Source: Saprospiraceae bacterium (GTDB taxonomy: Bacteria; Bacteroidota; Bacteroidia; Chitinophagales; Saprospiraceae). From it: DNA of 64,000 nt. A program made the translations under genes and the position numbers. Shown here piece by piece: positions 2,063-6,854 of this stretch; within the stretch, counting starts at the first letter, position 1, and each line of letters opens with the position of its first letter. A model generated the notes under the pieces. It saw only the letters and a program-made list of their open reading frames with translations, was not told where the DNA came from and ran no database searches. The DNA is taken from NCBI GenBank assembly GCA_013214355.1, contig JABSSL010000005.1:1-64000 (forward strand). The letters are read 5' to 3'.

Positions 2063-4477
2063 TTAACTTCCACACATCAAGCAATCGGGATCATCAAGGT
2101 TACAAACTTGACCTTCAGTATCTCCAAGATCACTTTCTATAATTGGGCCTCCGCCTGCAATTGTGGAAGTCCCTGTATTACCAGACTCGGCAGCAACTGC
2201 TACCTGCTGGGCTTTTTGCTTTACAGTGAATTTAATTGGATCGGTAGCTGCTTTTGATCTCAAATAATACATACCTGTCTTCAATCCTTTTTGCCAAGCA
2301 TAGAAATGCATCGAAGAAAGCTTTCCGAAGTTTGGATTCTCCACAAAAAGGTTCATACTCTGACTTTGACAGATATACGCTCCACGATCCGCTGCCATAT
2401 CGATAATGACCTTCTGACTAAGCTCCCAGACCGTCTTGTACAAATCTTTCAAATCTTGTGGAATATCAGGGAATTCCTGAATAGAGCCATTAGAAGCCAT
2501 TAATCTATGCTTCATCTCATCATTCCACAATCCAAGACGGATAAGATCTTTCAGCAAATGCTTGTTGACAACGATGTACTCACCTGATAATGTTCTACGC
2601 GTGTAGATATTTGAGGTATAAGGTTCGAAACATTCATTGTTTCCGAGGATCTGAGAAGTTGAGGCAGTAGGCATCGGCGCCAATAACAGGCTATTACGCA
2701 AACCGTTTTTCTTGATCTTCTTCTTCAAATCACTCCAATCCCATCTACTTGATGGTTCTACTCCCCACATATCGTACTGGAGCTCTCCTTTACTAGCAGG
2801 AGATCCAGGATAAGATTGGTAGGTGCCTTCTTTTTCTGCTAAAGCATTGGATTCTGATAAGGCCGCGAAGTAAATAGTCTCAAAAATGTCCTTATTCAAT
2901 TGCTTAGCCTCTGGACTATCGAATGGATGACGCATTAAAATAAACGCATCGGCAAGGCCTTGAACACCAATACCAATCGGACGATGTCTCATGTTAGAGT
3001 TTTCCGCCTCTGGAATTGGATAGTAATTAATGTCAATTACTTTGTTAAGGTTTCTGGTAACTACTCTCGAAATCTCGTACAAGCGCTCAAAATCATAGGA
3101 ACCGTCCTCCTTTACAAATTTGCCTAGAGAAATCGAAGCCAAGTTACAGACGGCTACCTCATCAGGTGAGGTGTACTCCATGATTTCTGTACATAGATTA
3201 CTAGATCTAATCGTGCCCAAGTTCTTTTGATTGGATTTACGGTTAGCAGCATCCTTGTATAGGATATATGGTGTACCCGTTTCAATTTGAGATTCCAAAA
3301 TGGCGAACCAAAGATCCTGAGCTTTCACCGTCTTCCGCGCCTTTCCTTCTTGCTCGTATTTGTGGTACAAAGCCTCAAACTCTCCACCGTAAGTATCATA
3401 TAGACCTGGACATTCGTTCGGGCAGAACAAAGACCATTCTGCATTGTCCTTCACTCTTTCCATGAAAAGATCAGAGATCCACATGGCATAGAACAAATCT
3501 CTCGCTCTTAACTCTTCCTTACCATGGTTTTTCTTCAAATCTAGGAATTCAAAAACATCAGCATGCCAAGGTTCCAAGTACACAGCGAAAGCGCCCTTTC
3601 TCTTGCCACCACCTTGATCTACATAACGAGCAGTATCGTTGTATACCCTTAACATTGGGATAATACCATTGGAAGTCCCTCCTGTGCCCTTGATATAACT
3701 GCCTTGGGCTCTGATATTATGGATACTCAGACCGATGCCCCCTGCCGATTGTGAAATTTTGGCACAACGCGATAGCGTCTCAAAAATCCCAGAAATACTA
3801 TCATCAGTCATGCTTAGCAAAAAGCAAGAAGAAAGCTGTGGTTTTGGAGTACCAGCATTAAACAAGGTAGGAGTGGCATGAATAAACCACTTCTCAGACA
3901 TTAAATTATAAGTCTGCACCGCAGATTCGATGTCATCTCCATGAATCCCGATAGCAGCTCGCATCAACATGTGCTGTGGACGTTCCACTACCTCACCATC
4001 CATTCTCAAGAGATAAGAACGTTCAAGTGTTTTGAAGCCGAAAAAATCAAAGCTATAGTCTCGATCATAGATAATTGCCGAGTCTAGGCGATCCTTATGC
4101 TTCCAAACTAGTTTATAAGTATCTTCTCCAATCAAACCAGCCTTTTCTCCTGTCTTCGGATCAATATAGTTGAAAAGCGCTTTTACCGTCTTGGAAAAGG
4201 ACTTATCTGTATTCTTATGAAGGTTCGAAATGGATATGCGTGCGGCCAACAAAGCATAATCGGGATGGGTGGTAGCCATCGTAGCTGCCGTTTCAGCTGC
4301 CAGATTATCCAATTCGGTGGTAGTTACTCCATCGTATAATCCAAGAATAACTTTTTTTGCTATCTCAATATGGCTGACGTAACGCGTGTCCAAGCCATAG
4401 CACAATTTTTTAACTCTAGCGGTGATTTTGTCAAAACTTACATCTTCCCGCTTACCGGAGCGTTTTACTACTTGCAT
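2063..4477 (-). CDS. nrdA: Ribonucleoside-diphosphate reductase, class Ia, alpha (large) subunit
   Basis: NrdA reduces ribonucleoside diphosphates to deoxy forms in the cytoplasm, with NrdB providing the tyrosyl radical. The 804-residue protein begins with an ATP-cone allosteric domain (about residues 1-95; VVKRSGKRE). The catalytic cysteines are all visible: C218 (QLSSCFLL), C429 in SSNLCTEIM with N427 and E431, and C444 in VAVCNLASI. The radical-transfer tyrosine pair is in GMYYLR. The C-terminal tail carries the swinging thiols C799 and C802 (CLMCGS), which accept electrons from thioredoxin or glutaredoxin. It lies 32 bases downstream of nrdB on the same strand, a two-gene operon in the order B-A. 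Length and all key residues are normal for an active enzyme. Confidence 0.97.
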
Positions 4478-4509: not shown

Positions 4510-5487
4510 TTAGAAGTCTTCGTCAAGGGTAAATACTTGCTTCTCGCGATCCGTCATCACACCAGATTTTTGGTAATCTCCGACTCTCTTCTCGAAGAAG
4601 TTTGTTTTGCCCTGTAGAGATATCATATCCATCCAAGGGAATGGATTTTCTACATTGAATATCTTTTCTTGTTGTAAAGCAGCCAATAGGCGATCAGCAA
4701 CGAATTCGATGTATTGACACATCAGATCGGAATTCATCCCAATTAGATTCACTGGCAGTGCGTCCGAAACGAATTCCTTCTCAATTTCTACCGCGTCAGA
4801 TATAATGGTTCTGATCGTATCTTTTGAAAGCTTATTTTGTATATGGTTATTGTACAGGAGACAAGCAAAATCACAATGCATACCCTCATCACGAGAGATC
4901 AGTTCATTAGAGAAGGATAAGCCGGGCATTAAACCTCTCTTTTTCAACCAGAAGATCGAACAGAAAGAGCCAGAAAAGAAAATTCCTTCCACCGCTGCAA
5001 ATGCAATCAATCGCTCAGCAAAGGAAGCCTCATCGATCCACCGCAGTGCCCATTCTGCCTTCTTCTTCACACAATCCATAGTTTCGATTGCATTGAAGAG
5101 ATAGTCCTTCTCTTTTGTGTCATTGATGTAGGTATCAATTAATAGAGAATAAGTCTCAGAATGAATGTTTTCCATCATTATCTGAAACCCATAGAAGAAC
5201 TTCGCCTCAGTATATTGCACCTCACTAACAAAATTCTCTGCTAGGTTTTCATTCACTATCCCGTCACTAGCAGCAAAGAAAGCCAAGACATGCTTTACAA
5301 AGTGTCTTTCATCGTCATTCAATTTATTGCTCCAATCCGTAAGATCTTGTGATAGATCTATTTCTTCCGCAGTCCAAAAACTAGCCTCAGATTTTTTGTA
5401 GAACTGCCATATATCATCATGTACAATCGGGAATAGCACAAATCTATTGGGGTTTTCCTCCAAAATGGGCTCCAAATTCTTACTCAT
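4510..5487 (-). CDS. nrdB: Ribonucleoside-diphosphate reductase, class Ia, beta (small) subunit
   Basis: NrdB houses the di-iron (or similar) centre and the stable tyrosyl radical used by NrdA. In the 325-residue protein the first metal ligand is D75 (AASDGIVNE). E106 and H109 follow in [10 protein letters not shown], with the radical tyrosine at Y113, the same spacing as E115/H118/Y122 in the E. coli enzyme. The second ligand set is in [14 protein letters not shown]. The presence of the tyrosine argues against a class Ic (radical-free) subunit. The start is ATG at 5487 without an evident Shine-Dalgarno site, usual for Bacteroidota. It is the first gene of the nrdBA operon, and the 420 bases upstream contain several DnaA boxes. 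Confidence 0.97.
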
Positions 5488-5906
5488 CTCAATAAAAATT
5501 TAAAATGGTTCACTTAGAATATAACTGTTAAATAAGGTGCAGAAAGGGGGAGGTCAGGCAACACAAGTTTAGAGCTTTTGCGAGTTACTTCTCTCGAAAA
5601 GCAAATTTTAATTTAGGCCTGTAAAAATTAAGGATTTCCCTTCTTTTGTAATGTCTAAGTAACTATGTTTTCTCGTATTCTATCCACTGATATTTTGTCA
5701 CCACTAAAGTAATAAAAAGGAGTACTGAAAACCGCCGAAGTTATCCACATAATGTGGATAACTATTTTAACAAATTGTAAATCAACCACTTAAAAGCAAA
5801 TCGTTTTTTTCCACAATGTGGATAACTTTATGTGGATAACTGACGTCTTATCAGCAAATAAGTGAGCATTAACATAAAATTAATGTATAAATAACATGAA
5901 AATCAG
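5488..5906. other. nrdB-corA intergenic region, AT-rich, with DnaA boxes
   Basis: No gene is seen in these 419 bases. The half nearer corA holds the DnaA-box cluster listed separately (5740-5839), embedded in AT-rich DNA. The half nearer nrdB should contain the nrdBA promoter, but I cannot point to a clean TAnnTTTG element. No NrdR-box pair is obvious by eye. Confidence 0.6.
5740..5839. promoter_or_regulatory. Cluster of five DnaA-box sequences
   Basis: Four exact copies of the consensus DnaA box are present. One is TTATCCACA on the plus strand at 5741-5749; three are the complement TGTGGATAA at 5753-5761, 5817-5825 and 5831-5839. A relaxed match TTTTCCACA sits at 5807-5815. The first two form a perfect inverted repeat with a 3-base spacer (arms 5740-5749 and 5753-5762). 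The 5807 and 5817 boxes are likewise head to head, with a 1-base spacer. In E. coli nrdAB transcription is controlled by DnaA boxes upstream of the promoter, so control of nrdBA is the simplest reading. A replication origin or a DnaA-titration site is the alternative. Confidence 0.75.
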
Positions 5907-6854
5907 CTAAAAAAGTCGCTTACGCTGGAAGTACCAAGCTACCAACAAACTACTTAAAACAGATGCAATAATAATACCATATACAGTGAAGCCACTGTCC
6001 ATAAATGGAATTGGTACATTCATCCCGTAAAAGCTGGCGATTAAAGTCGGTACCATCAAGATAATGGTAATTAAGGTGAGTCTTCTGATGGTGAGATTCA
6101 GGTTATTGGAGATGATTGATCCATAGGCATCCATGGTGCCATTCAAGATATTGGTATACACATTTGCCATTTCCAATGCCTGACTATTGTCAATGATAAT
6201 GTCTTCAAACTGATCCGATTTATCCTCATCTTCTCGGATGCCTAAATAGTCTGAACGCTTCATCTTCATCTTCAATAGCTCATTAGAACTTAATGAGTTC
6301 ATGAAATACACCAAGCTCTTTTCTATACTCAATAGTTCTTTCAGCTCTTTATTCCGGCTAGAATCGTATAACTCTTTTTCAATCAGATTTCGCTTTAAGT
6401 TGAGTTTCTTCAAACAAGTTAGATAACGATAAACAGTCTGTTCCAATATTTGAATCACAAATAGAGACTCATCTGCAGGATCAAAGTGCTTTACTTTATT
6501 GTCTAAGAATAGCTGGAGGACAGGATTTTCATAAGATGAAATGGTGATGATATGATCTAAGGTTAGGATGATACCGATAGGGACCGTAATGTAGATGGCA
6601 TCATTCTCCTCTTCAGACTCATTCAAGATTGGGGTATTGACCACAATTAATCGGACATCATCCTCCCTTTCGTAGCGGGAACGCTCGTCGATATCCAGTG
6701 AATCAATCAAGAAATCTAGAGGAATAAAGAAACGTTGTGCAATCTCTTCTAATTCTTCCTGGCTAAAAGGGGGGGAGATATTGATCCAGCATGATGCTTG
6801 GGGCTCTTCTAACTCCTTCAGTCTCCGATCAGCCTTGGCATAATACTGTATCAT
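5907..6854 (-). CDS. corA: CorA-family magnesium/cobalt transport protein
   Basis: CorA proteins are homopentameric inner-membrane channels for Mg2+ (and Co2+). The 315-residue sequence has the expected plan: a large acidic cytoplasmic N-terminal domain, a long helical stalk (about residues 160-245), and two C-terminal membrane helices. The signature YGMN loop lies between them (GMN at about 277-279, then VPIPF). The C terminus is basic (FQRKRLF), placing it in the cytoplasm. The gene stands alone, with a TATGTTTG element 56-63 bases before its ATG. Mg2+ selectivity is inferred from the family, not shown by the sequence. Confidence 0.93.
   Translation of the reverse strand: MIQYYAKADRRLKELEEPQASCWINISPPFSQEELEEIAQRFFIPLDFLIDSLDIDERSRYEREDDVRLIVVNTPILNESEEENDAIYITVPIGIILTLDHIITISSYENPVLQLFLDNKVKHFDPADESLFVIQILEQTVYRYLTCLKKLNLKRNLIEKELYDSSRNKELKELLSIEKSLVYFMNSLSSNELLKMKMKRSDYLGIREDEDKSDQFEDIIIDNSQALEMANVYTNILNGTMDAYGSIISNNLNLTIRRLTLITIILMVPTLIASFYGMNVPIPFMDSGFTVYGIIIASVLSSLLVAWYFQRKRLF

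Follow-up and report, generated by a model that had tools for sequence, protein, structure and literature searches.

A conserved cluster of DnaA boxes upstream of nrdBA in Saprospiraceae, a likely DnaA-responsive operator-promoter predicted from comparative sequence analysis

What does a dense group of DnaA boxes do in front of the ribonucleotide reductase (RNR) genes of a Saprospiraceae bacterium? The group lies in the first 64,000 nt of contig JABSSL010000005.1 (hereafter the window, which begins at the start of this contig, C170), from an assembly of 11.19 Mb in 224 contigs. Near relatives of the NrdB encoded there were recorded as Lewinella and Saprospiraceae, with 96% identity to an uncultured Lewinella MAG. 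The initial annotation of the window proposed control of nrdBA through these boxes and named a replication origin or a DnaA-titration site as an alternative. The features concerned are as follows, in the order in which they are met from corA towards nrdA:

5907..6854, minus strand: corA-like Mg2+ transporter gene, a common upstream neighbour (PF01544)
5831..5839, minus strand: DnaA box B1 (TTATCCACA), exact match, tandem with B2 at a 5-bp spacer
5817..5825, minus strand: DnaA box B2 (TTATCCACA), exact match, head-to-head with B3 at a 1-bp spacer
5807..5815, plus strand: DnaA box B3 (TTTTCCACA), one mismatch relative to the E. coli word
5768..5792, no strand assigned: 25-bp dyad near YAANNNNYTGATWATCARNNNNTTR, 15 of 17 specified bases, between the box groups
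5753..5761, minus strand: DnaA box B4 (TTATCCACA), exact match, partner half of the palindrome
5741..5749, plus strand: DnaA box B5 (TTATCCACA), exact match, promoter-proximal half of the 3-bp-spaced head-to-head pair
5704..5711, minus strand: putative -7 element of the promoter, TACTTTAG against a consensus of TAnnTTTG, lying 29 nt past the palindrome when read along the nrdB strand, with a predicted start near 5699
5488..5699, minus strand: predicted nrdB 5' leader, about 212 nt
4510..5487, minus strand: nrdB, class I RNR small subunit (PF00268, E=1.5e-116)
2063..4477, minus strand: nrdA, class I RNR large subunit with N-terminal ATP-cone (PF02867, PF00317, PF03477, TIGR02506)

The cluster (5741-5839) was located entirely within the gap between the end of corA (5907) and the start of nrdB (5487). 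Read in the direction of nrdB, the order was B1> B2> <B3, a 45-bp gap, B4> <B5, the -7-like element 29 nt further on, the leader, and the nrdB start. The four exact boxes and one near-match within 100 bases that had been annotated initially were recovered as four copies of TTATCCACA and one of TTTTCCACA, the latter a word frequent both in the nrd clusters and in clusters of Saprospiraceae called origin-like here on box density alone. The head-to-head pair with a 3-base spacer, described as perfect, was indeed a perfect 9+3+9 palindrome at 5741-5761, and a second head-to-head pair absent from the initial annotation was formed by B2 and B3 at 5807-5825.

In the 64 kb, TTWTCCACA (the meaning of "exact box" in all counts over genes and genomes below) occurred six times, compared with 1.6 expected under a first-order Markov model, and five of the six fell in this 100 bp. 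The Poisson estimate for five boxes in a given 100 bp, multiplied by 64,000 positions, was about 6e-11, so the pairing initially judged unlike a random scatter reflects clustering far above chance. One-mismatch matches were at chance level over the whole window (22 found, 18.5 expected), and the signal therefore lies in the clustering. Across the whole genome, exact TTATCCACA was present at 120 places (90 for the reversed control), and convergent pairs of TTWTCCACA no more than 30 bp apart were limited to the two in the nrdBA cluster.

NrdB-like protein matches were present in 51 of 61 Saprospiraceae genomes, and a close orthologue (69-100% identity) in 47, one of which (L091, with less than 150 nt upstream before the contig end) was left out, giving 46 upstream regions. 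An exact box was found within 400 nt upstream in 36 of the 46, bearing out the conservation among relatives for which the initial annotation had suggested a comparison, and within up to 1000 nt in 38. The eight regions lacking an exact box in the scanned upstream DNA (up to 1000 nt) comprised five at NrdB identity of 74% or less and three at 84-88%. With the same 400-nt test, boxes preceded 10 of 17 nrdJ genes (L116, with less than 150 nt upstream, left out) and, among the 30 best-scoring loci for each gene, 21 dnaB, 13 dnaN, 10 smc and 5 dnaA genes (mean upstream length of the last 367 nt), compared with 1 of 30 for the control gene corA. The background was 10 of 507 genes (2/261 in G057, 5/144 in G031 C2 and 3/102 in the contig of the window), counted in stretches that were not picked for boxes and with their own nrdB genes included. 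In an ungapped alignment of eight regions of equal spacing, box columns were 84% identical versus 44% outside the boxes and the -7 element. The distance from box cluster to nrdB start ranged widely, from about 85 to 706 nt.

A named set from the wider Bacteroidota comprised 80 nrdB loci, of which 26 were titled Saprospiraceae, Lewinella or Phaeodactylibacter and 54 otherwise. An exact box within 800 nt was present at 22 of 25 of the former (L235, with no upstream DNA, left out) and at 9 of the latter, the remaining 45 being without one, some of these 54 loci having less than 800 nt upstream. At least one of the nine, L202, is the same contig as the family genome G012, so the titles understate the family, and several named loci repeat contigs of the 61 genomes, so that the two sets are not independent. 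The nrdB region of Lewinella cohaerens DSM 23179 (L186) also had five boxes, of which four were exact, and their order was that seen here. In L236, L240 and L242 (recorded as Cyclobacteriaceae, Flammeovirgaceae and Marinoscillum), two exact boxes upstream of nrdB were divergent and 118-119 bp apart, possibly a separate arrangement.

Several observations concerned the other genes preceded by boxes. Tandem exact boxes 11 or 21-22 bp apart were located about 110-160 nt upstream of dnaB (L370, L374, L381, L382, L386), a recurring spacing that suggests helical phasing. Many DnaB genes were open frames of about 685-1277 aa whose match was split near query residues 240 and/or 410 (e.g., G000:C214:60688-63225; L380-L383, L385, L386), as expected for inteins at one or two sites. 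Exact boxes lay 58-126 nt upstream of smc in 9 of 30 genomes, including the present one with two boxes, and at 185-199 nt in a tenth (L087:7092-7132, L387-L416).

The strict 21-bp palindrome TTWTCMACANNNTGTKGAWAA occurred at 27 places in 26 of the 61 genomes, and its reversed control at none. Twenty-four of the 27 preceded an RNR gene, 18 nrdB and 6 nrdJ (G001, G020, G028, G031, G045, G054), with one copy before each of the two genes in G031; the other three were in G026 (behind corA, at a locus from which the orthologous nrdB is missing) and elsewhere in G003 and G005. The nrdJ query matched best the NrdJ family TIGR02504, being a partial query under the whole-protein cut-off. Looser convergent TTWTCCACA pairs with gaps of 0-30 were found at 72 places in 32 of the 61 genomes, a noisier pattern, given that its reversed control gave 20 places in 14. 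The common neighbour corA as anchor of the cluster was ruled out by a separation test: none of 15 corA loci away from RNR genes had an exact box within 900 nt downstream, versus 9 of 11 nrdB genes away from corA that kept exact boxes, with G026, G055 and G058 as exceptions. Among L277-L306, 17 of 21 RNR-adjacent corA loci had an exact box within 900 nt downstream (the adjacency in L283 spans a contig break). Thus, the boxes are kept upstream of nrdB, mostly follow nrdB where corA lies away from it, and recur before nrdJ, a pattern that supports the DnaA-box control of nrdBA proposed at the outset.

The relation to a promoter was analysed with 38 palindromes of 2- or 3-bp spacer, located upstream of nrdB (31) or nrdJ (7). 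The sequence TA..TT[TAC]G started 28-31 nt after the palindrome in 19 of them and at exactly 29 nt in 14, compared with at most three over 28-31 nt in 2000 mononucleotide shuffles; two of the 19 palindromes lacking the element at 28-31 nt had it at 40 nt. The -7 box of Bacteroidota, TAnnTTTG, has been placed at -12 to -5 in a Flavobacterium (PMC9723704), from which the palindrome would end near -42. The boxes of the window are accordingly near a predicted promoter, with the -7 element at 29 nt and B5 at about -42 to -50 relative to the predicted start. A regulatory RNA in the nrdB leader was considered and rejected, since all Rfam matches were sub-threshold and the folding energy was no better than that of mononucleotide shuffles (z 0.24).

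Between the two box groups, the plus-strand arm of the dyad (5780-5792, AATCAACCACTTA) matched exactly the IHF consensus WATCARnnnnTTR, as taken from PMC8407004, and the dyad resembles in sequence two back-to-back IHF sites. In 13 of the 38, TGAT preceded the palindrome by exactly 23 nt (shuffle maximum 4). The IHF consensus, with up to one mismatch allowed, was sought in 41 regions, those of the 38 palindromes and three more in which the cluster stands behind corA. It occupied one fixed register on one strand in 18 of the 41 and the mirror-image register on the opposite strand in 16; no column exceeded three in 1000 shuffles. None of the seven nrdJ copies had the dyad at fewer than five mismatches. 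With up to two mismatches it was present at 112 places in 2.41 Mb of overlapping loci, 48 with an exact box within 150 nt and 64 without; three of the places were inside the origin-like ranges and one just outside. A DNA-bending member of the HU/IHF family is the probable ligand of the dyad, whose symmetry suggests a homodimer. In other Bacteroidota, the dyad with one or two mismatches was also observed 310-369 nt before nrdB genes lacking exact boxes there (L203, L222, L246, L249).

Taken with the conservation and linkage described above, this layout makes it likely that nrdBA has here an operator-promoter responsive to DnaA. DnaA would recognize the five boxes as a monomer: B1, B2 and B3 make up an upstream group, and B4/B5 the promoter-proximal head-to-head pair, whose end would be about 42 bp short of the predicted start of transcription. 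An HU/IHF-family protein bending the DNA at the dyad would fold the two DnaA groups together, and the number and nucleotide state of the DnaA molecules on the array would set nrdBA transcription, thereby coupling dNTP supply to replication. In some relatives, the same palindrome precedes nrdJ, the gene for the class II RNR. What we infer from the sequences in this scheme are DnaA binding, the function of the dyad, the sign of the control (activation or repression) and the cell-cycle coupling.

Alternatively, the cluster could titrate DnaA or switch its nucleotide state, as do datA or DARS2, being positioned before nrdB by chance and controlling the DnaA pool instead of the adjacent gene. Boxes together with an IHF site correspond to the plan of datA as given in PMC8407004, and clusters with the dyad persisted without the orthologous nrdB behind corA in G026, G055 and G058, where the dyad register had 1, 3 and 5 mismatches, respectively. 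Even in these three genomes, however, the -7 element was kept at exactly 29 nt, and this preferred distance, together with the recurrence before nrdJ, indicates promoter control, so that a role in titration without control of the adjacent gene is unlikely; promoter control and titration could coexist. The gene next to the nrdB-less cluster encoded a SpoIIE-domain protein in G026, an OmpA/DUF6089 protein in G055 and, judged by eye, a similar-looking one in G058, and the module there may now drive expression of what follows, be it these genes or a short RNA, or may have DnaA itself as its target. Behind the G058 cluster (L315:1820-1865), a hairpin followed by a T run was observed about 75-95 nt past the predicted start, from which a short RNA could be made.

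As to the protein bound, the DnaA of this genome (TIGR00362) aligned over residues 4-462 with the solved DnaA 8btg and possessed in its DNA-binding domain the motif GGRDHSTV, which we take to contact the box. The candidate protein at the nrdBA cluster is DnaA. A dedicated RNR repressor or activator acting on a look-alike word would account for the RNR-centred linkage, for the symmetric sites and for half-site variants such as TTATCAACA and TTATTAACA. The 108 half-sites of the nrd clusters included 42 TTATCCACA, 36 TTTTCCACA and 12 TTATCAACA, the rest being others, and 22 of the 108 had A at position 6; the origin-like regions had 54 TTATCCACA, 20 TTTTCCACA and 3 TTATCAACA (3 versus 74 exact). 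Half-sites with A at position 6 are thus more frequent in the nrd clusters than in the origin-like ones, and this argues against identical specificity at the two kinds of site. Several genomes, however, had TTATCAACA upstream of dnaN, about as far from the gene as the exact boxes of other genomes. Against a dedicated regulator, the predominant word is identical to that of the origin-like clusters and stands also before dnaB, dnaN and smc. Tandem boxes occur, and close pairs have spacers of 1, 2 and 3 bp, which fits a box recognized by a monomer better than one rigid dimer. The regulator NrdR (TIGR00244) was detected in none of the 61 Saprospiraceae genomes, compared with 9 of 14 control genomes, the Bacteroides control not being among the positives. 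A dedicated factor in place of DnaA is therefore quite improbable.

The remaining alternative, a replication origin, was assessed from box clusters elsewhere. In G057 (main contig 4.35 Mb), 11 exact boxes were found at 2,052,119-2,052,832 (L146) beside a ctaA-like gene (NF045570 match, under its cut-off); nrdB is there at 955 kb, dnaA at 1.4 kb. In G022 C349, a ctaA gene (PF02628) and its surroundings contained 18 exact boxes over 3 kb, G056 C95 and G060 C74 had smaller groups (6 and 3 boxes) beside genes that looked by eye like ctaA, and G046 C139 (L314) had 28 exact boxes in 1.43 kb, no ctaA being seen in the stretch. The origin-like clusters of these five nrdB-bearing relatives were all away from nrdB, and four were beside a ctaA-like gene; those of G046, G022 and G057 had more boxes than the nrdBA cluster. 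Two further groups were noted: nine exact boxes about 7 kb from the G057 cluster (G057:C1:2045334; L276:1141-1537), and four similar 25-bp elements, TTATCCACA-N7-TGTGGATAA, on three G056 contigs (C95:6381-6498, C133:24901, C138:473). In the genome under study, one other close pair, C150:7092/7124, which precedes smc, was present among 100 of the 120 exact TTATCCACA places listed, TTTTCCACA having been scanned across this genome only inside convergent pairs. GC skew was too weak and noisy for an origin to be placed from it in C170 (164 of 170 kb), G057 (20 samples, 400 kb of 4.35 Mb) and G031 C2 (14 samples, 280 of 353 kb), and no switch was seen at 5.8 kb, where only 5.7 kb of contig lies on the far side. 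That the cluster is oriC or part of it, an alternative named initially, is thus unsupported and very unlikely. In its favour, five boxes and an IHF-like dyad lie within 100 bp, relatives have the dyad in or next to their origin-like clusters too, and no rival origin site was located in this genome. Against it, in G046, G022, G057, G056 and G060 the box clusters (up to 28 exact boxes) are on other contigs than nrdB or far from it, the loci at which the palindrome goes with nrdB or nrdJ differ, G031 having one copy in front of each gene, and the weak skew showed no switch at 5.8 kb, with that short far side.

Control of RNR genes by DnaA is known from other bacteria. E. coli nrdAB has DnaA boxes and is under both positive and negative DnaA control, RNR genes of B. 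subtilis and C. crescentus have been proposed as DnaA targets, and dnaN (E. coli, B. subtilis) and dnaB (Caulobacter) are among the DnaA-linked genes reviewed in PMC8203912. E. coli DnaA favours tandem boxes spaced 2-3 bp, those of nrdA included, and binds, too, upstream of nrdD, a class III gene (PMC11317965). The Saprospiraceae cluster shares with E. coli nrdAB its place before a class I RNR operon, the TTATCCACA type of box and a close pair with a 3-bp spacer, but the E. coli pair is tandem (TTATCCACAaagTTATGCACT, PMC11317965), whereas the pairs here are head-to-head with 3-bp and 1-bp spacers. The E. coli-type tandem double box (2-3 bp spacer) was not found, the tandem B1-B2 spacer being 5 bp. 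The central dyad, the Bacteroidota-type -7 element, the nrdB-nrdA order and the failure to find NrdR in 61 genomes are further differences from E. coli nrdAB.

The combination of DnaA boxes with an IHF site, here a resemblance in sequence alone, recalls E. coli datA and DARS2, which act on the DnaA nucleotide cycle (PMC8407004), whereas the Saprospiraceae cluster keeps a preferred distance to a promoter element, mostly precedes RNR genes and has a symmetric dyad. The pairing of DnaA with RNR genes in another phylum parallels that proposed for B. subtilis and C. crescentus (PMC8203912), a source whose main text contains no Bacteroidota case. The literature searched, most subscription papers being outside it, yielded no report joining DnaA box, ribonucleotide reductase and Bacteroidetes, and none on a DnaA regulon in Bacteroid- taxa. 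In regulation through NrdR boxes, palindromic operators stand before RNR genes of different classes, with another word and spacing. The present palindromes likewise precede different RNR classes, unlike that system in genomes of which none of 61 had an NrdR gene. DnaA control of nrdAB was thus already known from E. coli, and the new details are the inverted pairing, the dyad and the nrdJ target: the logic is as in E. coli, and the differences lie in geometry, dyad and class II target.

A bolder extension, which we hold only tentatively and which has the odds against it, would regard the element as a portable switch in which two DnaA groups, folded together over a symmetric IHF-like site, read the DnaA nucleotide state (and perhaps reset it, as datA does), drive whichever RNR a given lineage has, class I nrdBA or class II nrdJ, and replace NrdR. 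With dnaB, dnaN and smc preceded by this box code as well, Saprospiraceae would have a replication regulon headed by DnaA.

The element stands before two separate RNR genes in different contexts, and the regulation of the function is therefore separable from the inheritance of one locus. The repeated geometry provides concrete predictions testable in a cultured strain such as L. cohaerens DSM 23179. A conserved DnaA-box cluster before RNR genes suggests that the supply of building blocks, the dNTPs, is probably tied to the replication cycle in Saprospiraceae; these comparisons are sequence evidence for coupling of dNTP synthesis to the replication initiator in a phylum distant from E. coli, in genomes without a detected NrdR.
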